Assembly: GCA_945861535.1 (NCBI GenBank)
Contig: CAMAUZ010000020.1
Coordinates: forward strand, 1-64,000
DNA: 64,000 nt
Source: Akkermansia muciniphila
Lineage (GTDB): Bacteria > Verrucomicrobiota > Verrucomicrobiia > Limisphaerales > BJHT01
Direction of reading: 5' to 3'
The notes under the pieces were generated by a model. The model worked only from the letters and a program-made list of their open reading frames with translations, was not told the origin of the DNA and did not search any database. Below, in pieces: positions 7,240-59,029 of the stretch. How positions within the stretch are numbered: position 1 is the stretch's first letter; each line of letters starts with the position of its first letter. Both the position numbers and the translations under genes were made by a program.

Positions 7240-8382
7240 TCACATCACTTCCGCTTCGCCATCCCGCTCCGCCCGCTCCGTCACCGCCAGCAAATCAACC
7301 AACTGCTCCGGCGTCAGCAATCCCTCGGGCAAACCATGCAGGAACCGCAGCCGCCGGCCGCGCTGCGGTCCGGTGCGGAAGAAACTTTCGAGCGTCAGCA
7401 AATCGTCCAGCAGCAGGGCTTCCTCGAACCGATGCCCCGGCGGACCGCTCGTGACTGCGCGCAGCAGCACCGCGACCAACTCGGTGGAAACTCCGCCGAG
7501 ATACGCGCGCAACAGCGGCGCGACCGGCTGCCCATCGGGCCAGCACGGCGGGACGCGGTATTCGCGCGGCGGCGTGGAGCCGAGGAGATTCAGCGGCAGC
7601 GTCTCGATGCGCGCGGGCGCGTGCAGCGTGAAGCAGAGCAACCGGAGCAGACCGGCGTAGGCGAATTTCGCCCCGCCCTTGAACGCGCCGTGGCAGGCCC
7701 AGCCATCGCCCGTCGCCGGTTCGCGGAGCAGCGCGAGTTCGAGCACCGGCGCGTGCCTGTCCCCGGTACCGCAGACGTCCCCGCCTGCGAGTTCGCGGGG
7801 CGTCTCGTCCCGAGTACCAACGGGCGGCGAGACGCCGCCCGAACTCGCACGAGAGGACGCCTGCATTACTGGCACAGCGACGCCTTGCGGACACTCCCGC
7901 CACGCGAGGTAAAAACACGCCCACGGCCACACGTTCACGCGGTTGAAGCGCGGCCGCACGGTGCGCAGCAGTTCGTTCTCGCGCAGCCGCGCGCTCGCCG
8001 GCGAGTCGCAGATCTCCCACTCGATGCGCCGGACCTCATGCACCAGGCGCACCGTCTTGCGCGAATCGCGCTCGGGATGCACGTGCCGGTAGCTGTTCAA
8101 CCGGTCCCGCAAATTCTGCGACTGCCCGATGTAGATGATCCGCCCCTCGCCATCGAACATCCGATACACGCCCGGCACCGCGGGGATCGCGCGGAAAAAC
8201 TCCGCACCAAACCGTTCCGTCAACGGCTTCGGTGGCGCGAACAACCGCAACTGCCGCGGCCGCTCTTCCGCCCCCAGGAGCGCGGGCGTCCCGCCCGCAG
8301 CGGCCCCACCTGCCACCGATGGCAGCGATTCCTCGTCCCCATCCAATGACACCGCTGCCTTAGTGGAAATCATGCGAAACAT
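7240..8382 (-). CDS. GIY-YIG endonuclease (UvrC/Cho N-terminal-like) in the SOS cassette
   Basis: A 380-residue protein. The nuclease domain at about residues 65-145 has the paired motifs GVYRMF and IIYIGQSQNLRDRLNSY, with the catalytic Arg in the second and a Glu in RLRENELLRT. The rest (about 145-380) resembles no domain I can name. Residues about 172-211 are encoded by a palindromic dispersed repeat (7766-7868) that also occurs between genes at 39240-39337, and residues 22-36 fall in another repeat (GCGGGCGTCCCGCCCGC). The ATG overlaps the end of dnaE2 by 23 bases, so it is almost certainly co-transcribed and coupled. A role in incision or processing during damage tolerance is inference. 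Confidence 0.75.
   Translation of the reverse strand: MFRMISTKAAVSLDGDEESLPSVAGGAAAGGTPALLGAEERPRQLRLFAPPKPLTERFGAEFFRAIPAVPGVYRMFDGEGRIIYIGQSQNLRDRLNSYRHVHPERDSRKTVRLVHEVRRIEWEICDSPASARLRENELLRTVRPRFNRVNVWPWACFYLAWRECPQGVAVPVMQASSRASSGGVSPPVGTRDETPRELAGGDVCGTGDRHAPVLELALLREPATGDGWACHGAFKGGAKFAYAGLLRLLCFTLHAPARIETLPLNLLGSTPPREYRVPPCWPDGQPVAPLLRAYLGGVSTELVAVLLRAVTSGPPGHRFEEALLLDDLLTLESFFRTGPQRGRRLRFLHGLPEGLLTPEQLVDLLAVTERAERDGEAEVM
7766..7868. repeat. Palindromic repeat lying in frame within the GIY-YIG gene
   Basis: About 100 bases containing nested inverted repeats: GCCTGCGAGTTCGCGGGGCG pairs with the later CGCCGCCCGAACTCGCACGA, and GGCGGCGAGACGCCGCC is a near-perfect palindrome. The reverse complement of the intergenic stretch at 39240-39337 has the same order of arms with only scattered changes. 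This marks it as a mobile or duplicated element that landed in a coding sequence without breaking the frame. Confidence 0.8.
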
Positions 8383-11300
8383 TTGCCTGTAGCTCCGCGA
8401 AGGCCAGTCGCTCGATGCGCAGCGCCTTGATGTGGATCGTGCCGTGCCGCGATTGCACCCGGCCCTCGATGAGCAGGAACGGCTCCATCGTGATCGTCAG
8501 CCGCTCGGCCTCGAACAAGTCCGCGTTCACGATCGCATTGCTGATGCCAGTCTCGTCCTCGAGGCTCACGAAGCACGTGCCCTTCGCCGTGCCCGGCCGC
8601 TGCCGGCAAATCACCAGACCCGCGACGCGCACGAGATCGCCGTTGCGCGCCTCCGCCAGTTCATTCGCGCACCACACCTTCGGCAAATGCTCGCGCACAA
8701 ACGCCATCGGATGCGGCCCCGTCGTCAGCCCCAGCCCCGAATAATCCGCCTGCAACCGCTCGACCGGATTCATCGGTCGCAACGGTGAATCCCCGTAGCC
8801 GCCGACGTGAGGAGGCGGAGCGTCTGGCACGGGCGGCCCATCGGGGACGGAGCGCCGAGCAATGCTCGGCCTGAGCGGATCGTCGGGATTCGTGCCGAGC
8901 GATGCTCGGCGCTCCGCTGCGTTGCGGGCGAATTGCGGATCGCGCCCCGCTGCCGAATCCGCCTCCTCCCGCCGGCTTCCGCCTGACCGCGGCATTTCCC
9001 AAGCCTTGGCTGGATCGCCTCCCCCCGAACGCAGCGGCTCCACGTCGTCGGTAGCTTTGGAATCTCCACCGCCCTCCGCCTGCTCCGCGCCGCTGCGGGC
9101 GGGACGCCCGCGCTCCTGCCGCCCGTCCGCCTCCTCACGTCGGCGGCTACCATCCGCCTCGTCACCTCGGCGGCTACCGTCCGTCGTGAACAACTCCCCC
9201 TCGCGCAGCGTGCTCTCCGCCTCCCACAGCGCCGCGCGGCGATGCGCCGCCAGGCAGTTCAGCGCGCCAATTTCCGCCAGCGTCCGCAGCTCCGGCTTCG
9301 TGAAACGCGTCCGCGCCTTCAGGTCATCCAGCGATGCAAACCGCCGCTGCGCCCGCGCCGCCAGCAGCGCCTCGCCGTGATCGCGCCGCAGTCCCTCGAC
9401 CTGCCGCAGGCCCAATCGCAGCGCGCCATCCGCCTCGATCCGGCAGTCCCAGTCCGACTCCGCCACGCACACCGGCCGCACGCGCAGGCCCCGCCGCCGC
9501 GCGTCCTTGAGCAACGTGTCCGGCGCGTAGAAACCCATCGGCTGGTTGTTCAGCAGCGCGCAGAAAAACTCGGGCGCGCGATGCACCTTCAGCCACGCGC
9601 TCGCATACGCCAGCAGCGCGAAACTGATCGCGTGCGACTCGGGAAACCCATACAGCGCGAAACCGCCCACGGCCTTCACGATCTTGTCCGCGACCTCCGG
9701 CTTTACCCCGTTGCGATCCATCGCCGCGCGCAACCGGGCCGTGACGCGCGCCATCTTTTCCTCGGACCGATGGAAGCTCAGCGCGCGCCGCAATTCCTCC
9801 GCCTCGTCACCGGTGAAGTTCGCAATGACCATCGCGATCTGGAGCATTTGTTCCTGAAACAACGGCACGCCGAGCGTGCGCTCGAGCACCGACACGAGCC
9901 GCTCGTCATAGTACGTCACTGCCTCCTCGCCTGTGCGCCGCCGCAGATACGGATGCGCCAGATCGCCCTGGATCGGCCCCGGACGGATGAGCGCGACCTC
10001 GATCACGAGGTCGTAAAAAATCTTCGGCTTCATGCGCGGCAACGTGGCCATCTGTGCGCGGCTTTCGACCTGGAACACGCCGATCGTCTCCGCTCGTTGC
10101 AACAGCGCGAACGTCTCCGGGTCCTGCTCGGGAAGCTGCGCCAGATCGACCGGCCGACCGCGCTCCGCCGCGAGCCGCAGCGTGTCCTGAATCGCGGACA
10201 TCATGCCGAGACCGAGCAGGTCCACCTTGATGATGCCGAGGTCTTCGCAGTCGTCCTTGTCCCACTGCGCGACGACGCGGCCGGGCATGGCGGCGTTCTC
10301 CAGCGGCATGAGCGAGCTGAGTTCGCCCTGGCAAATAATCATCCCGCCCGTGTGCTGGCCGAGATGCCGCGGCAACCGGCTCATCTGCTGATACAGGCTC
10401 GCGAAGGCCGCGGCGCGTGGATGCGTGCGCGGCAGGCCCGCCTGCTCCATCTGCGCGAGCAGTTCAAGCGTGTGCGGAAAATCACCGTGCGGAAACAGGT
10501 GTGTAAAGCGGTCGAGCACGTCGGCAGGCAGGTTCAGCACCTTGCCCAACTCGCGTGCGGCGCTGCGGCCGCGATAGGTGATGACCGTCGCCGTCATCGC
10601 CGCGCCGTGCTGGCCGTAGCGGCGATAGACCTCCTGAATCACGCGCTCGCGCCGCTCGCCGCTGGGCAGGTCGATGTCGATGTCCGGCCAGCCTTTGCGG
10701 CCTTCGCTGAGGAAACGCTCGAAGAGGACGTTGAACTTCACCGGATCCACGGCGGTGATGCCGAGGCAGAAACACACGGCGCTGTTCGCCGCGCTGCCCC
10801 GGCCCTGCGCGAGAATGTCGTTGTCCCGACAAAAGCGCACGAGGTCGGCGACGATCAGGAAATAGCCGTCGAACGCGAGCTTGCAGATCAACGCCAGCTC
10901 CTTCTCCAGCAGCAGCCGCACTTTTTCCGGCACGCCCTTTGGATAGCGCAGACGCGCGCCCGCGTAAGTCTGCGCGCGCAGAACGCCCGGCATCGTTTCG
11001 CCGAGGCCGACGGGGAAACGGGGAAATTCGTAACCCAGATCTGCGAGCGTGAACTGGAGGCGGTCGGCGAGGCGCACGGTGTTGGCGAGCGCGTCGGGCT
11101 GATCGGCGAAGAGCGCGGCCATCTGCGGCGCGGTCTTGAGATGCCGCTCGCTGTTCACGGCCAGCAGCGTGCCGGCGACGTCCAGATGCGTGTGGTGGCG
11201 CAGACAGGTGAAGACATCGAGCACCTGACGACCGGACGAATCGGTGTGCAGCGGGCCGTTGGTGGCGAGCAGCGGGAGGCGGTGCGCGTGGGCGAGATCA

Positions 11301-11866
11301 AGCAGTTGGCGATTCACCGTGTGTTCGTCGCGGCGCAGGTGGCGCTGGATTTCGATGAACACATTTTGTGGACCGAATGCGTGGACGAGACGCTGGATGA
11401 TTTCCGCGGGCGCGGGTGCGGGCGCGCGGGGGGGCGTGGGTACGGATGACGTGCCGGTCAAGCCGCGACGCAGCGGGCCTTCGTCATCGCCGGTGAGGGC
11501 GACAAGGCCGCCGGCGAACTCGGCGAGTTCCTCCCAACGCACGGTGCCCTCGCCCTTGGGCGCGCGCAGATGCGCCCGCGTGAGCATCTGGCACAGGTGC
11601 CGGTAGCCCGCGCGCGACTCGACGAGCACCGGCAGCACCGAGCCGTCTTCGAGAATCAGTTCCGACCCGATGATCGGCCGCACGCCCGCCTCGCGCGCGG
11701 CGCTGAACAACCGGGGCGCGCCATACACGCCCATGCGGTCGCACACCGCCAACGCAGGCAGCCCAAGATTCGCCGCCGTCGCCGCGAGCTGCTCCGGCAG
11801 CGCCGCCCCGCGCAGAAAGCTGAACGCACTCCGCGCGTGCAGCTCGATGTAGGCAGGCGCGGTCAT
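8360..11866 (-). CDS. dnaE2: Error-prone DNA polymerase DnaE2 (C-family)
   Basis: A 1168-residue polymerase, longer than the usual 1000-1080. The open frame extends to 12334, but upstream codons are repeat DNA. The start is the ATG at 11866, giving MTAPAYIELHARSAFSFLRG, the canonical start of the PHP domain. The palm has PDIDIDLPSGER with the catalytic Asps near residue 395. Helix-hairpin-helix and C-terminal OB-fold segments are present (VRVAGLVICRQRPGTAKG). Residues about 890-1030 are a Ser/Arg/Gly/Pro-rich insert encoded by palindromic repeats at 8790-9190, placed in the variable linker before the OB fold. It acts with ImuA and ImuB in SOS translesion synthesis. Confidence 0.95.
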   Translation of the reverse strand: MTAPAYIELHARSAFSFLRGAALPEQLAATAANLGLPALAVCDRMGVYGAPRLFSAAREAGVRPIIGSELILEDGSVLPVLVESRAGYRHLCQMLTRAHLRAPKGEGTVRWEELAEFAGGLVALTGDDEGPLRRGLTGTSSVPTPPRAPAPAPAEIIQRLVHAFGPQNVFIEIQRHLRRDEHTVNRQLLDLAHAHRLPLLATNGPLHTDSSGRQVLDVFTCLRHHTHLDVAGTLLAVNSERHLKTAPQMAALFADQPDALANTVRLADRLQFTLADLGYEFPRFPVGLGETMPGVLRAQTYAGARLRYPKGVPEKVRLLLEKELALICKLAFDGYFLIVADLVRFCRDNDILAQGRGSAANSAVCFCLGITAVDPVKFNVLFERFLSEGRKGWPDIDIDLPSGERRERVIQEVYRRYGQHGAAMTATVITYRGRSAARELGKVLNLPADVLDRFTHLFPHGDFPHTLELLAQMEQAGLPRTHPRAAAFASLYQQMSRLPRHLGQHTGGMIICQGELSSLMPLENAAMPGRVVAQWDKDDCEDLGIIKVDLLGLGMMSAIQDTLRLAAERGRPVDLAQLPEQDPETFALLQRAETIGVFQVESRAQMATLPRMKPKIFYDLVIEVALIRPGPIQGDLAHPYLRRRTGEEAVTYYDERLVSVLERTLGVPLFQEQMLQIAMVIANFTGDEAEELRRALSFHRSEEKMARVTARLRAAMDRNGVKPEVADKIVKAVGGFALYGFPESHAISFALLAYASAWLKVHRAPEFFCALLNNQPMGFYAPDTLLKDARRRGLRVRPVCVAESDWDCRIEADGALRLGLRQVEGLRRDHGEALLAARAQRRFASLDDLKARTRFTKPELRTLAEIGALNCLAAHRRAALWEAESTLREGELFTTDGSRRGDEADGSRRREEADGRQERGRPARSGAEQAEGGGDSKATDDVEPLRSGGGDPAKAWEMPRSGGSRREEADSAAGRDPQFARNAAERRASLGTNPDDPLRPSIARRSVPDGPPVPDAPPPHVGGYGDSPLRPMNPVERLQADYSGLGLTTGPHPMAFVREHLPKVWCANELAEARNGDLVRVAGLVICRQRPGTAKGTCFVSLEDETGISNAIVNADLFEAERLTITMEPFLLIEGRVQSRHGTIHIKALRIERLAFAELQANVSHDFH
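8790..9190. repeat. Palindromic dispersed repeats lying in frame within dnaE2
   Basis: Inside dnaE2 are: TAGCCGCCGACGTGAGGAGG at about 8797-8818; a GAGC(C)GAGCAATGCTCGGC type palindrome at 8848-8925 in two arms; GCTGCGGGCGGGACGCCCGC at 9093-9118; and a GCCTCCTCACGTCGGCGGCT tandem at 9126-9180. Copies of the same sequences occur between genes at 11880-11910, 12021-12045, 15588-15612, 39443-39470, 58411-58437, 58479-58560 and 58775-58910. The coding frame stays open through all of them. Confidence 0.85.
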
Positions 11867-12616
11867 TTCAAAAGCCCCCCCGTAGCCGCCGACGTGAGGA
11901 GGCGGACGGCCCCGCACGCACGCGCTCGGCCTGCGTTCCGGAGCGCGGTCTGCAGGCCGCAGAGACGTCCGCATGGAACGGAGGCGTGGGCAAAATCTAG
12001 AGCGCCCGGCGAGATCGCCGCCGCTGCGGGCGGGACGCCCGCGCCCCGTCCCGGAGGGACACCGCAGGAGATTAGCCGGGGGCAAGTCCGCGGCAGCGGA
12101 CGCGGCCCCCGGTTGCCGCCGCAGATTGGTCCCCGCCCCGGAGGGGCATCGAAGAAAGCGAGTCGTCGTGAGTGAAACGTCCTCGCGAAAGAGTTCGGAT
12201 ATTTTTCTCCGATGCCCCTCCGGGGCATGGCGTTTTCGCGACGTCCACCGGGGGCTGCATCCGCTCGCGCGGCCTTGCCCCCGGCTAATCTCCGCTGGCG
12301 TCCCTCCGGGACCAGGGACGGCGCGGCACTCCACGGAGCGCGGCCTTCAGGCCGCAGAGACATCCGCATGGAACAGAGGCGATGGAAGATACGAGCGCGC
12401 CCAGCGTGGTCGGGGCCGCTGCGGCGTGAACGCCGCGCCCCCGGAGCGCGGCCTTCAGGCCGCAGAGACGTCCGCATGGAACGGAGGCGTTGGGAGATAC
12501 GAGAGCGCCCCGCGAGGTCGGGGCCGCTGCGGCTGGTCCTCGGCGGACACAGCCGCGCTCCAGGCGCTCCTGATCGCCGCGCTGTGGGTTTCCTGTTCAT
12601 GCGCAGTCGCCGCGTT
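11867..12616. repeat. Repeat-filled gap between imuB and dnaE2 (fold-back element plus three ~100-bp units)
   Basis: No gene is supported. A TAGCCGCCGACGTGAGGAGG copy is at 11882-11903. Three related units starting CGGAGCGCGG(T/C)CT(G/T)CAGG and continuing AGAC(G/A)TCCGCATGGAAC lie at 11939-12030, 12334-12426 and 12442-12535, the last two spaced 108 bases. A 265-bp fold-back element (12048-12312) has arms GTCCCGGAGGGACACCGCAG...TTAGCCGGGGGCAAG and their inverse. A CTGGTCCTCGGCGGACACAG fragment at about 12533-12562 matches part of 30146-30274. dnaE2 must either be read through this from imuB or have its own promoter here. Confidence 0.8.
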
Positions 12617-14107
12617 TCAATCCAACATCCCCTCGACCGTCCAGCCGTCGGGTTGATGCGCGAGACGCAGGGTCTGGCCGCTCTGCGTGGTGATGTCCCA
12701 TTCGTCGCGCTGCCACGCGCCGGGTTCCCACCAGTGACCGGACGCGCGCCACGGGCCGAGGACGATCTTCAGTTTCCCCCGCGCCACCGTGCATTGCAGC
12801 GCCACCGGCGTCGGAGCCGCCGCGCCGGGAGCCGTGGTGACGTCCACCTTTTCCGCCGGGCGCAATCGCCGCAGGGCCACCGGACGCGCGATCGTGCCGA
12901 CGCGTGAAGTCGCGGCGCGCGGCGCATTTTCAAAATCCGGCGGAACCATGCGGAAGGCGTCGGGCCGATGACTGTTCTCGCGCACCGGCGTGCCGACGCG
13001 GTCGGAGCCGAGCAGCGCGGTGAGGCGGGCGATGGTGTCCTGAAACTGCTGCGGATCGCGCAGGGCGGCCTCGAACAGACTGAACTGCTTGTGCTCCGGC
13101 TCGGCGGGTTCGATCCGCAACGTGACGGTGACGATGGCCGAGTCGCTGCGCACGGTTTCGAGATGCGTGTGCAACATGCGGAACAGCACGTCCGGCTGGC
13201 GCGTCGGCTGCGGCACGCGGAGGCGGCGTTCGAGCGGATCGCCGGATTCGAGGCCGAGGCGGAGAATGAGCTGCCCGGCGACTTTGCCGCCGATCTCAAG
13301 ACGCGGCGTGAGCTGATCAACAAAGCGGCGGAGGAGAAAGAGCAGCGGTTCGAGGGTCTCGACGGCGTCCTCGAACTCGAAGGTCTCGGCGAACTCCTCG
13401 GCCGGACGAATGATGTTCAGCGGCCGGCTGGCCGTGGGCGAGGCGGCGGCGAAGAGCGCGAGGGCTTCGAGACCGAGGCGATCCATCACGGCGTTCTGCC
13501 CGAGCGCAAGCAGTTCGCCGACCGTCGGGATGCCCCATTTTTTGAGGATGTCCGTGACATCGGTGGACGGCTCAAGCGCGGCGACGGGCAGGGATGCGAT
13601 GAAGGCGACGGGATCGGTGACGATGTGGATGCCTTCGCCCCAGCGGGCCGCGTGGCGCGCGAGATTGGGCGTGGGCGCGATGCCGATGCGCGCGCGCAAC
13701 TGAAAAACTGCGAGGCTGTCGCGCAGTCGCGTGGCCCAGCGCGTGAGGATTTCGGGCGCGGCATTTTTCAATTCACTGAGTCCGCGCAGATCCAGCGTGG
13801 TCAGGCCGGGCGCGGTGTTTTCCAGATGCGGCGAGAAGCCGTAGGCACCTTGCAGGAGCGCGTCGGTGGCGCTGCGTTCGTGCGCGGGCGAGCGATGGCG
13901 GATGAGCACGTCGCGGCAGCGCGCGAGCGCCTGCGTCGGGGTCAGTCCCAGTGTGATGCTGGCAGCGCGCGCGGCCCCGGTAAACTCGCAAACGCGCGGC
14001 GTGCTCAGCGCGGGATCGACGAGCGCGACCGACTTGTCCCACAGCTCCGGCTCGTGGCGCAGCGCGGCTTGCAGCGGGAATTGCGGGATTTCAATCGCGG
14101 CGAACAT
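12617..14107 (-). CDS. imuB: ImuB, inactive Y-family polymerase-like mutasome protein
   Basis: A 496-residue protein with the DinB/UmuC-like fold. The N-terminal DxD position of active Y-family enzymes reads AAIEIPQFPLQAAL, and the S-I-D-E-A motif is replaced by TLDLRGLSELKNA, so the catalytic acidic residues are missing, as is usual for ImuB. The helix-hairpin-helix/thumb segment is ILKKWGIPTVGELLALG, and the C-terminal part (VALRRLRPAEKVDV) is the family tail. ImuB bridges the beta clamp, ImuA and DnaE2. It lies between imuA and dnaE2 on the same strand, but repeat DNA separates it from both. Confidence 0.93.
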   Translation of the reverse strand: MFAAIEIPQFPLQAALRHEPELWDKSVALVDPALSTPRVCEFTGAARAASITLGLTPTQALARCRDVLIRHRSPAHERSATDALLQGAYGFSPHLENTAPGLTTLDLRGLSELKNAAPEILTRWATRLRDSLAVFQLRARIGIAPTPNLARHAARWGEGIHIVTDPVAFIASLPVAALEPSTDVTDILKKWGIPTVGELLALGQNAVMDRLGLEALALFAAASPTASRPLNIIRPAEEFAETFEFEDAVETLEPLLFLLRRFVDQLTPRLEIGGKVAGQLILRLGLESGDPLERRLRVPQPTRQPDVLFRMLHTHLETVRSDSAIVTVTLRIEPAEPEHKQFSLFEAALRDPQQFQDTIARLTALLGSDRVGTPVRENSHRPDAFRMVPPDFENAPRAATSRVGTIARPVALRRLRPAEKVDVTTAPGAAAPTPVALQCTVARGKLKIVLGPWRASGHWWEPGAWQRDEWDITTQSGQTLRLAHQPDGWTVEGMLD

Positions 14108-15243: not shown

Positions 15244-15684
15244 GTTCCCGATGGTCTGCTTCCCGTTTTGTTGACCTGCGGGAGGGCCAACGTAGCCCTT
15301 CGCGAATCGCTGAAAACGGAAATAATGCAGAACGCATTCTGCCACAGGGGGTGGGTCATCTACGGGGTAAGGGGTAAAAAAAGTTTTCGCGCTCGGCCGG
15401 CCTGCAGCGGTGGTGGTGGTGGCGCGCTGGTGGGAGCGAAACCGGAGCGCCGAGACTGATTGGGCAGGGGGATTTTGGGCAAAGGAATGGAGGCAAAGGA
15501 ATGGGGACGGGAAAACTTTTTCGCCTTCATTCCTTTGCCTCCATTCCTTTGCTCCAAAATTCCCCTGCCATGTTTCGATGCGGGGAGATCCGCCTCCTCA
15601 CGTCGGCGGCTGCAGTACTGCTCCGCGCGTTTGACATGCCCCGCACCCTCGCTACCCTGCCGCCGCATTCAGCCGCCACCCATT
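15244..15684. repeat. Divergent intergenic region with AAAGGAATGGAGGCAAAGGA hairpin
   Basis: Between imuA and the first sulfatase. A near-perfect hairpin at 15463-15569 has arms of about 40 bases: GGGCAAAGGAATGGAGGCAA continuing AAGGAATG, against CATTCCTTTGCCTCCATTCC continuing TTTGCTCC, with a loop of about 20 bases. A GCCTCCTCACGTCGGCGGCT copy is at 15590-15610. Promoters for both divergent genes must be here; none is recognised with confidence apart from the operator-like inverted repeat at 15327-15342. Confidence 0.8.
15327..15342. promoter_or_regulatory. Candidate SOS operator (inverted repeat GCAGAA-N4-TTCTGC)
   Basis: A perfect 6+6 inverted repeat with a 4-base spacer, 84 bases upstream of the imuA start and in the only sizeable leader of the cassette. 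Its architecture (two 6-base arms, N4) is what a dimeric repressor such as LexA needs. No lexA gene is in the window, so the assignment rests on position and symmetry only. Confidence 0.35.
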
Positions 15685-36405: not shown

Positions 36406-36763
36406 GCGTCACTTTTGAAGCAGCGTGACGTAACAGTGGAAATGAGGAGGACTCGAGTGTCGGGCGGTCGAACTCGGAGCCAGCGCAGTCTGCAGGCAGA
36501 CCGGGTGGTGGCAGATAGCGAACAGCGCGGGGCCGATGGGTCTTGGGGAGTGGGCAGGGGAATTTGGGGCAAAGGAATGGAGGCAAAGGAATGAAAACAA
36601 GAAGTTTCCACCTTCCCATTCCTTTGCCTCCATTCCTTTGCCAAATCAGATGCTGCGATTGGGATTCCGATTTGGAGGGGTCAAGACGCGTTCGTCCGGC
36701 CCGGAGCGTTCCACCCTGAAGCGGCATAAGTGCCGCGCTCCCCGGTCGGCTTCCGAGTCGATC
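36406..36763. repeat. Intergenic hairpin of the AAAGGAATGGAGGCAAAGGA family
   Basis: At 36552-36646 lie GGGCAGGGGAATTTGGGGCA, AAGGAATGGAGGCAAAGGAA and their inverse, with a loop of about 20 bases. It sits between the convergent desaturase and acetyl-CoA synthetase genes, so a terminator role for both is possible. Nothing else is recognised in the gap. Confidence 0.85.
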
Positions 36764-38779
<2,016 letters not shown>

Positions 38780-39479
38780 AGGTTTGGTTCCAAAAGTGGG
38801 CGGCATCTTAGAAGTGAAGTCCGATGCGTCAACGGTGAAGGCGGGGGCGCGCAGCAGGACCATGAACCGCCGGATTTTGGCAGACGAATGGGGGCAGGCG
38901 AATGGGGAATGGCGAACGTATTCGGTGGACGTTCCCGGCGAGCGGCGCGGCCCGATGGACGCACGGAAGTTTGGCAGCAGAATTTTGGGCAAAGGAATTT
39001 TGGGCAAAGGAATGGAGGCAAAGGAATGAAGACAAAAGGTTCCCCGTCCCCCATTCCTTTGCCCCCATTCCTCTGCCCAGATCCGTTTCGGAGATTGGGG
39101 TTCAGAGCCAGGTTGTCCCCGCCGCGTTCGTCGTCCCGCTGCTGCCGTTGGCGTGCGGAGAACCCGGGCGCTGAGACGGCGCAGCCTGGGGCGAGGGTGC
39201 CTGCGTGGGGCGCGCCGAACGAGCGGGTAGCGCCGGTTTTCTCGCCTGCGAGTTCGGGCGGCGTCTTGCCGCCCGTAGCGACTCGGGGCAAGACGCCCCG
39301 AGAACTCGCAGGCGAGACGCCTGCGGTACGGTTGCGCGATCGTACGGCGGCAGGCGCTGACCTTTTCGGCGATGGGAGCGTCGTCGGGGAAAAGGAGGTT
39401 AGAGTCTCCTCACGTCGTCTCCTACAAGGGCGCTCGCGGGCGTCCGCCTCCTTACGTCGGCGGCTACGGGGGGAGCCGA
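38780..39479. repeat. 700-base intergenic region with four repeat families
   Basis: Contents: a CAAAGGAATGGAGGCAAAGG hairpin at 38974-39081, with one extra direct GGGCAAAGGAATTTT unit; the palindromic element at 39240-39337 (GCCTGCGAGTTCGGGCGGCG / GAACTCGCAGGCGAGACGCC), whose other copy is inside the GIY-YIG gene; one end of the GAGTCGAGGTAACGAGACTC family at 39398-39429 (diverged); and a TACGTCGGCGGCTACGGGG copy at 39452-39472. The short plus-strand ORFs here are made of repeat sequence. Confidence 0.8.
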
Positions 39480-57437: not shown

Positions 57438-58385
57438 ATGCACCACCTCGTCGAAGATTTCCTGCAATACATCCGCCACGAGCGCGGCCGCTCCGAGCAG
57501 ACCCAGAAGACTTATGCCTCGCTGCTCAACCGGTTCATCGCCTGGGCTGGCTCGCAAAACCTGCGCGACTGGAAAGCCGTCGAGTTCCGCCATCTCACCG
57601 CCTTCCTCGAACACGAGCGCCTGCGTGGCCTCGAGACCGAACCCGAACCCACTGCCCGCAAACTCAGCTCCGAAAGCCTCTACCTCCAGATCGCCGCCCT
57701 GCGTGCTTTCTACCGCTTCACCGAGACGGAAAAATTTCTGCCGGTGAACGTCGCCGAAAACCTCTCGCTGCCGAAACGCTGGAAGCGCCTCCCCAAATCT
57801 CTCTCCGCCGCGGAAATCGAAACGCTGCTCAAACCGCTCCCGCTCGAAACCCCGTCGTCCCTTTGCGACCAGGCCATGCTCGAGCTCGCCTACGCCTCCG
57901 GCCTGCGCCTCGCCGAGTTGCGCCACATCCGCCTCGAACAACTCCACCTCGACGCCGGCTTCGTCACTGTCATCGGCAAGGGCAACAAAGAGCGAGTGGT
58001 CCCCCTCGGACGCGCCGCCGTCGCCGCGCTCAAACACTACCTCGACTCACCCGGCGGCCGCGCGAAACTCGTGACCAAACGCTCGCCCGCGAATGTTTTT
58101 TTGACCCAGCGCGGCACGCCCTTCGCACCCGTTACCCTTTGGTTGCGCGTCAAAAAACGCGCCGAACACGCCGGCCTCGAACGCAACCTCACACCCCACA
58201 TGCTGCGCCACAGCTTCGCCACGCACCTGCTCGAACACGGTGCCGACCTGCGCGCCATCCAGGAACTCCTCGGCCACGCGAGCATCGGCACCACCGAGCT
58301 ATACACGCACGTCGAAGGCAAACGCCTGCGCGAGGTCCACCAAAAATTCCACCCCCGTGCCCGCGACGACGGAGAAAAAGATTAA
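57438..58385 (+). CDS. Tyrosine recombinase XerC/XerD
   Basis: A 315-residue recombinase; the ATG at 57438 starts MHHLVEDFLQYIRHERGRSE, the canonical SAM-like N-terminal domain. The catalytic set is complete: Arg157 (ASGLRLAEL), Lys in GKGNKERVVPLG, His254/Arg257 in HMLRHSFATHLLEHGADL, His280 in LLGHASIGT and Tyr289 in ELYTHV. XerC/XerD resolve chromosome dimers at dif. Which of the two it is cannot be decided. The last 27 codons are part of the tandem duplication that continues downstream. Confidence 0.92.
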   Translation: MHHLVEDFLQYIRHERGRSEQTQKTYASLLNRFIAWAGSQNLRDWKAVEFRHLTAFLEHERLRGLETEPEPTARKLSSESLYLQIAALRAFYRFTETEKFLPVNVAENLSLPKRWKRLPKSLSAAEIETLLKPLPLETPSSLCDQAMLELAYASGLRLAELRHIRLEQLHLDAGFVTVIGKGNKERVVPLGRAAVAALKHYLDSPGGRAKLVTKRSPANVFLTQRGTPFAPVTLWLRVKKRAEHAGLERNLTPHMLRHSFATHLLEHGADLRAIQELLGHASIGTTELYTHVEGKRLREVHQKFHPRARDDGEKD

Positions 58386-59029
58386 CCTTGTTCCTGCGGC
58401 GATCCCACGCCCGTAGCCGCCGACGTGAGGAGGCGGATCGGCCGCGGGCTGAAAGCCGGTGCCTCCCCCTGAACCCCGGCGTGGAGCGCCGAGCCTTGCT
58501 CGGCAAGTGCGGCCGGGAAATGTCCGAGCCGAGCAATGCTCGGCGCTCGGATCGCCGTCGGCTCACTCCTTTTCCCCGACCAGCTTGATGAGCCGCAGCT
58601 TGGCGGCATCGCGATCCAAAATCTGCGCGCGAGAATCCAAGACCGTGTGCGGCGCCGGATTCTGTGCACGCACGTCGAAGGCAAACCCCTTCGCGAGGTC
58701 CACCAAAAATTCCACCCCCGCGCCCGCGACGACGGAGAAAAAGATTAGCCTTGTTCCTGCGGCCACCTCACGCGCGTAGCCGCCGACGTGTGGAGGCGGA
58801 TCGGCCGCGAGGGAGGTCTCCGGCTAGCCATGAATCCGGGCGTGGAGCGCCGAGCCTTGCTCGGCAAGTGCCGCCGGAAAATGTCCGAGCCGAGCAATGC
58901 TCGGCGCTCCGGTCGGCGTCAGCTCACTCCTTCTCCCCGACCAGCTTGATGAGCCGCGGCTTGGCGGCGTCGCGATCCAAAATCTGCGCGCGAAAATTCC
59001 AAACCGTGTGCGGCGCCAGATTTCCGAGA
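58304..59029. repeat. Tandem duplication (about 363-bp period) spanning the ends of the convergent xer and zinc-ribbon genes
   Basis: Unit A (58304-58666) starts in the last codons of the recombinase and includes the intergenic palindromes and a copy of the last part of the zinc-ribbon gene. Unit B (58667-59029) repeats all of this in the same order. Shared landmarks are CACGCACGTCGAAGGCAAA, CAAAAATTCCACCCCCG, GTAGCCGCCGACGTG, GCCGAGCAATGCTCGGCGCT and GCTTGATGAGCCGC. The copies differ at roughly one base in ten, so the event is not recent. It leaves a chimeric dead ORF at 58536-58748. Confidence 0.9.

Follow-up and report, generated by a model that had tools for sequence, protein, structure and literature searches.

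An in-frame mosaic of REP and REPIN palindromes in the HhH–OB linker of a verrucomicrobial DnaE2

The error-prone DNA polymerase DnaE2 encoded in the 64,000-nucleotide stretch analyzed here (the window) carries between its HhH and OB-fold domains a linker whose recognizable elements are REPs and REPINs, i.e. mobile palindromes tagged by GTAG or GGAG and arranged as inverted pairs. With a probability of about 85%, the linker is a REP/REPIN mosaic that was inserted in frame into a short flexible linker and is tolerated as a disordered tether.

Structure of the dnaE2 gene

The gene, the insert with its flanking domains and the neighbouring partner gene are located as follows.

8360..11866, minus strand: dnaE2 (imuC), error-prone C-family DNA polymerase of 1168 aa, uninterrupted open frame
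9233..9490, minus strand: HhH domain (HHH_6, PF14579), aa 793-878, flanking the insert upstream, Pfam match, pLDDT of the block mostly 91-95
8786..9190, minus strand: REP-derived linker between HhH and OB, aa 893-1027, ~135 residues, recognized by six REPs and by pLDDT
8408..8632, minus strand: OB-fold domain (PF01336), aa 1079-1153, flanking the insert downstream, Pfam match
12617..14107, minus strand: imuB (Y-family, mutasome partner; Pfam IMS), upstream of dnaE2 on the same strand, intact

The Pfam matches of the protein comprised PHP (aa 8-176), Pol III alpha (296-552), finger (555-720), HHH_6 (793-878) and OB (1079-1153). The PHP domain, the Pol III alpha core, the HhH and OB domains and the neighbouring imuB identify it as a member of DnaE2/ImuC. 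DnaE2 orthologues were aligned with it, and the genome also holds a separate DnaE1.

Compared with the sister genome G001, dN/dS was 0.06 for codons 1-892 and 0.03 for the 140 codons starting directly after the insert; strong purifying selection thus acts on either side of it. A preliminary description of this DNA had claimed an in-frame linker of ~140 residues with at least four repeat units and a surviving reading frame. Both claims are borne out by the 135 residues with six REPs, and by the uninterrupted gene with flanks at 0.06 and 0.03, respectively. Since selection acts on the OB domain and no stop codon intervenes, the linker is most likely translated. In the AlphaFold2 model the pLDDT was below 50 for aa 889-1024, and most of the nearby flanking blocks reached 80-95.

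The insert starts right after an ELF motif ([DE]DLF/ELF). This motif aligns near the clamp-binding peptide of the E. coli Pol III alpha subunit; clamp binding by the motif in DnaE2 would be putative.

Composition of the linker

Listed in the direction of translation, the linker contains the following elements.

9154..9177, minus strand: GTAG-family REP, sense, two mismatches, peptide GSRRGDEAD
9127..9150, minus strand: GTAG-family REP, sense, exact, peptide GSRRREEAD
9095..9116, minus strand: GGAG-family REP "C" (GGAGCGCGGGCGTCCCGCCCGC), sense, peptide RGRPARS
8978..9049, minus strand: middle segment DDVEPLRSGGGDPAKAWEMPRSGG, unique and non-dispersed, with synonymous-biased divergence from the sister
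8957..8980, minus strand: degenerate GTAG-like REP, peptide SRREEAD, aligning with SRRREEAD of the sister module
8894..8915, minus strand: GGAG-family REP "D" (GGAGCGCCGAGCATYGCTCGGC), sense arm of a REPIN
8849..8870, plus strand: GGAG-family REP "D", inverted partner of the sense arm at 8894-8915, with a 23-bp spacer between the two
8795..8818, plus strand: GTAG-family REP, inverted, at the outer edge of the insert, encoding PPPHVGGYG, present at this position in sister G001 as well

On the coding strand the order is GTAG, GTAG, C, unique segment, degenerate GTAG-like copy, D REPIN and inverted GTAG, and the reading frame is open throughout. In total, six recognizable REPs from three families and one degenerate GTAG-like copy were found. 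The earlier view of a repeat-built linker holds insofar as the REP units are real; recognizable REP sequence, however, makes up only ~40% of the linker DNA and stems from three families rather than one. The spacers are unique within the sampled DNA.

REP families in the window and in the genome

Further copies of the linker repeats had been reported at 11880, 12021, 15588, 39443 and 58411-58910. All of them were confirmed, and each is located between called genes.

11886..11905, plus strand: intergenic GTAG REP between imuB and dnaE2
12019..12044, minus strand: intergenic C-family REP
15589..15611, minus strand: intergenic GTAG REP
39441..39467, minus strand: intergenic GTAG REP
58413..58911, no strand assigned: duplicated stretch between genes that contains GTAG REPs and D-family REPINs

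Most copies of the GTAG family in the window are intergenic. At 58299-59022 a tandem duplication of ~361-363 bp comprises the end of the upstream gene together with its downstream REPs. A C-family REP additional to the earlier list was found near the start (8275-8304) of a GIY-YIG gene (7240-8382), the frame of which also contains a long inverted repeat at 7765-7869. Furthermore, a separate dispersed palindromic family built on GGCAAAGGAATGGAGGCAAAGGAATG is present at 15461-15552, 36551-36642 and 38986-39077.

Genome-wide (7.94 Mb) the 20-mer core of the GTAG family occurred in 297 copies with at most 2 mismatches, whereas the reversed sequence used as control occurred in none, which excludes chance. 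The foot of this family (family A) was GTAG in 32 of 37 sampled copies and GTGG or GCAG in the rest, and a hairpin was predicted. Foot, palindromic stem, high copy number and mainly intergenic location are those of REPs. According to the published definition the REP foot reads GT(A/G)G. The C and D families, with GGAG in 9 of 13 and 11 of 12 copies, respectively (384-kb subset), fall outside this definition and in the strict sense are REP-like; altogether, four of the seven families carry GGAG instead of GT(A/G)G. In the same subset all seven families formed inverted pairs with outward feet and clustered gaps (D 23-24 bp, F 63 bp), and REPs were rare between divergent genes. Inverted REP pairs with short conserved spacing characterize REPINs. 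The feet, the outward inverted pairs, the clustered gaps and the rarity between divergent genes fit what has been published on REPs and REPINs (PMC3733652, PMC3116915).

The seven families accounted for 430 copies in 1.58 Mb of sampled DNA (~82% coding), with 379 intergenic copies, 3 across a gene end and 48 within genes, as counted with a purpose-written gene caller on a sample that was partly picked around known REPs. A subset of 1.2 Mb, added later by contig order, contained 248 intergenic, 2 gene-end and 27 intragenic REPs. The 48 intragenic REPs fall in 23 of 1110 called genes, among which dnaE2 is level with a gene for a YfhO-like protein for the highest number of REPs.

UvrA carried two REPINs and the YfhO-like protein three. 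REPINs were also present in an FtsX/MacB permease, a DUF1549/DUF1553 protein, a type II methylase, a U32 peptidase, CstA and others. In UDP-glucose dehydrogenase a single REP is located directly after the central domain and before the C-terminal domain. Intragenic REPs were mostly found between or outside detected Pfam domains, as expected for what remains after a filter against damage to folded domains. The two REPINs of UvrA (L217:14175-17786) belong to the D and B families and lie in the C-terminal part; this matches the doubly interrupted uvrA genes reported in Opitutus terrae.

Putative transposase partner

The genome contains nine matches to Y1_Tnp (HuH transposase). At one of these loci (L007:1390-2126) a RAYT-type gene has D-family REPINs on both sides, known as a REPtron arrangement. 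Its N-terminal codons are apparently out of frame with the remainder in the assembly, so the gene may be decayed or may use a later start. Within the ~1.5 kb flanks scanned at the nine Y1_Tnp loci, no transposase was located beside the GTAG family, and the D family was the only one with an adjacent transposase gene. Movement of the REPs and REPINs by RAYT-type HuH transposases can therefore only be inferred.

Comparison with known mobile palindromes

Intragenic REPs tagged by GTAG were described by Di Nocera, De Gregorio and Rocco in 2013 and were most numerous in the verrucomicrobium Opitutus terrae (PMC3733652). There, the REP-tagged proteins include DnaE2 and uvrA, the largest REP-encoded regions measure 43-82 aa, and genes of one functional category carry REPs mostly at different sites. 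Flexible linkers and neutrality were already proposed by these authors as an explanation. Since intragenic REPs including those of DnaE2 have been reported, the insert described here belongs to a known kind. It shares with them GTAG palindromes which are often dimers, the wholly intragenic and in-frame location, the targets DnaE2 and uvrA and the verrucomicrobial host. It differs from the 2013 cases by a composite of 135 aa as compared to 43-82 aa, by the co-occurrence of three families, two with GGAG tags, in a single linker, by the turnover between sister species and in that unrelated families have invaded one linker repeatedly. What is added to the 2013 report is the size, the mixed composition, the GGAG families, the rearrangement between sisters, the recurrent use of the linker by unrelated families and a species-specific in-frame REPIN in imuB of the sister.

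REPINs and their RAYT (TnpA-REP) transposases were described by Bertels and Rainey in 2011 (PMC3116915; see also PMC8266576 and PMC3686654). As in these systems, inverted REP pairs with conserved spacing, several families per genome, a flanking RAYT-type gene (one case, perhaps decayed), tandem clusters and insertions into existing REPINs were found. Unlike published REPINs, four of the seven families have a GGAG foot and inserts are located within coding genes.

The elements had previously been compared with Rickettsia palindromic elements (RPEs). This comparison is appropriate with respect to behaviour, since both are dispersed palindromes that enter protein genes in frame, here in dnaE2 and several others. 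Membership in that group is ruled out: RPEs carry a CGTC tag, and CGTC elements are without a dedicated transposase (PMC3733652), but the feet found here are GTAG or GGAG and no terminal CGTC tag is present. The enterobacterial elements RU-1/2/3 (PMC2759123) are likewise small non-autonomous repeats that keep the frame inside host genes; they are, however, longer (103-168 bp), MITE-like and from other lineages.

Comparison with a sister genome and outgroups

DnaE2 of G001, the one congeneric genome searched, shared 97% identity with DnaE2 of the window over the 893-aa core. Its linker carried the two outer GTAG REPs at positions corresponding to those in the window. The interior was arranged differently. 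In G001 a module (GTAG REP, spacer, D REPIN) occurs twice and the unique segment comes next, whereas in the window a single such module is placed after the unique segment. The different number and order show that inner modules were duplicated, deleted or relocated after the two species diverged, the frame being kept.

DnaE2 orthologues from the order, which served as outgroups, had a short HhH-OB linker. The expectation that the linker would be missing in relatives with aligned flanks was thus confirmed for the outgroups, and the sister linker was rearranged. Presence in the sister and absence in the outgroups indicate that the insert arose in a pre-existing short linker. An exact empty site was not seen among them, the nearest outgroup being 77% identical.

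A filled and empty pair was found in imuB. The sister carries an in-frame insertion of 162 bp (54 codons; filled copy L052), and the window has the empty site at ~13631-13638. The insertion is a species-specific, C-family-like REPIN, and gain or loss would explain the pair alike. With respect to REPIN transposition, this presence/absence difference is all that was observed. As only few insertion differences between G001 and the window were present in the sampled overlap, and most of them were without REPs of the seven families, no consensus insertion target was drawn.

Recurrent invasion of the linker in other Verrucomicrobia

Among 86 DnaE2 sequences, insertions of at least 12 residues formed two clusters, one near residue 135 (12 sequences) and one in the HhH-OB linker (24 sequences). 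Repeat-type linker inserts were present in 14 of 15 sampled Udaeobacter-like DnaE2s (label assigned by hand). These were often complete REPINs with GTAG or GGAG feet, and the families differed by species. Each of three such REPIN families counted was dispersed in most or all of 14 genomes searched. Where tested, linker families of other lineages had 0 and 1 copies in the genome of the window. On a core tree of 74 DnaE2 rows the insert family changed at least 15 times and presence changed at least 6 times, both counts being rough due to the quick tree and the coarse labels assigned by hand. Inserts of different families shared no common peptide.

In the 15 genomes with sampled DnaE2, no insert was found at the HhH-OB linker of DnaE1. 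Single degenerate REPs were located in a short loop of DnaE1 in about three or four of these genomes, and DnaE1 is consequently not quite a clean negative control.

Proposed origin and alternative explanations

We propose that a REP or REPIN inserted into the short HhH-OB linker in the ancestor of the genus and that the resulting mosaic would be translated as a long disordered tether. Later growth may have occurred as additional REPINs inserted within or next to existing ones and as repeat copies recombined. Equally oriented GTAG copies share one reading frame and, as inferred from the two sister arrangements, duplication or deletion between such copies would not disrupt it. Selection would remove frame-shifting insertions and hits to folded domains, and inserts in the linker would survive because linker length can vary. 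The same filter would lead to unrelated repeat families in the HhH-OB linker of other Verrucomicrobia.

Tolerance at linkers, as suggested earlier, is supported overall, but some of the linker may be under constraint at the protein level. In the middle, REP-free segment of 24 codons the window and G001 differed at 1, 2 and 9 sites by codon position (p = 0.004; dN/dS 0.07), and the two tandem modules of G001 differed at 3, 2 and 12 sites (p = 0.002), both p values being uncorrected for ~14 comparisons. These patterns suggest that parts of the linker are constrained in their amino acids, and they also support its translation. Simple tolerance does not predict so few amino-acid changes in the REP-free part.

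According to a different explanation the inserts themselves are selected, and a renewable disordered tether would tune mutasome assembly or clamp access, with REPINs as exapted raw material. We regard this as rather unlikely. Besides the codon-position patterns, it could draw on the inserts in 14 of 15 Udaeobacter-like DnaE2s with none in the DnaE1 linker of the same genomes and on the ELF motif preceding the insert. However, the comparison of the window module with the sister modules gave no significant codon-position bias, and the p values above are uncorrected. Single REPs also occur in the short loop of DnaE1 in a few species, and many unrelated genes contain REPs. Moreover, the repeat family shifts constantly without a shared peptide, which argues against a fixed sequence-specific role of the linker.

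More speculatively, the HhH-OB linker could be a recurrent landing site in Verrucomicrobia at which the currently active REPIN family becomes coding, and selection could retain the tether because its length or composition tunes the mutasome. We consider this rather unlikely as well. If true, selfish palindromes would represent a steady supply of new protein for an error-prone polymerase.

That the mosaic is an assembly artefact, with repeats collapsed or misjoined, could be suspected from a repeat-rich draft genome of 169 contigs but is very improbable. The outer REPs recur at identical places in the separately assembled G001, where the frame is open and the flanks are about 90-93% identical, and independent genomes have inserts at the same site. 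Even less credit can be given to dnaE2 being a decaying pseudogene that accumulates repeats unselected. Many repeats within one gene would be compatible with this, but it was rejected since the gene has neither stop nor frameshift, the dN/dS values before (0.06) and after (0.03) the insert are low, all DnaE2 domains were detected and the adjacent imuB is intact. Finally, the idea of an ancient conserved DnaE2 segment whose intergenic copies are decayed dnaE2 pieces can practically be dismissed: no support for it was found, outgroup linkers are short and lack the segment, the sister linker is rearranged, other lineages have unrelated families at the same place, there are ~297 genomic copies, and in the sampled DNA only palindrome units are shared with dnaE2.

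Under the preferred reading of a tolerated REP/REPIN mosaic, the linker represents a naturally replicated experiment, in which one site has received many in-frame fillings by unrelated selfish palindromes and the paralogue DnaE1 is available for comparison. It allows one to measure the conversion of mobile DNA into protein, the rate of turnover and tolerance versus later use. It is also a warning against taking long low-complexity stretches of such proteins for domains, as these may be mobile DNA of recent origin.

Further insertion sites in DnaE proteins

Inserts at other positions were noted as well. The replicative DnaE1 of the genus to which the window belongs (L278 in G001, L279 in G000) has an insert of 55-64 residues near residue 344. 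It contains a different dispersed repeat of the GGCGGCGAGACGCCGCC...CTCGCAGGC type. The site near residue 135 of DnaE2, close to the PHP region, is a second recurrent insertion site with apparently translated repeats in Udaeobacter-like genomes (L070, L079, L080, L082, L084, L087, L090, L096, L101 and L145). In acidobacterial DnaE2s (L116, L134 and L137), inserts of ~70 residues near residue 837 contain CPKCGCDD and a second Cys pair and resemble a zinc ribbon.
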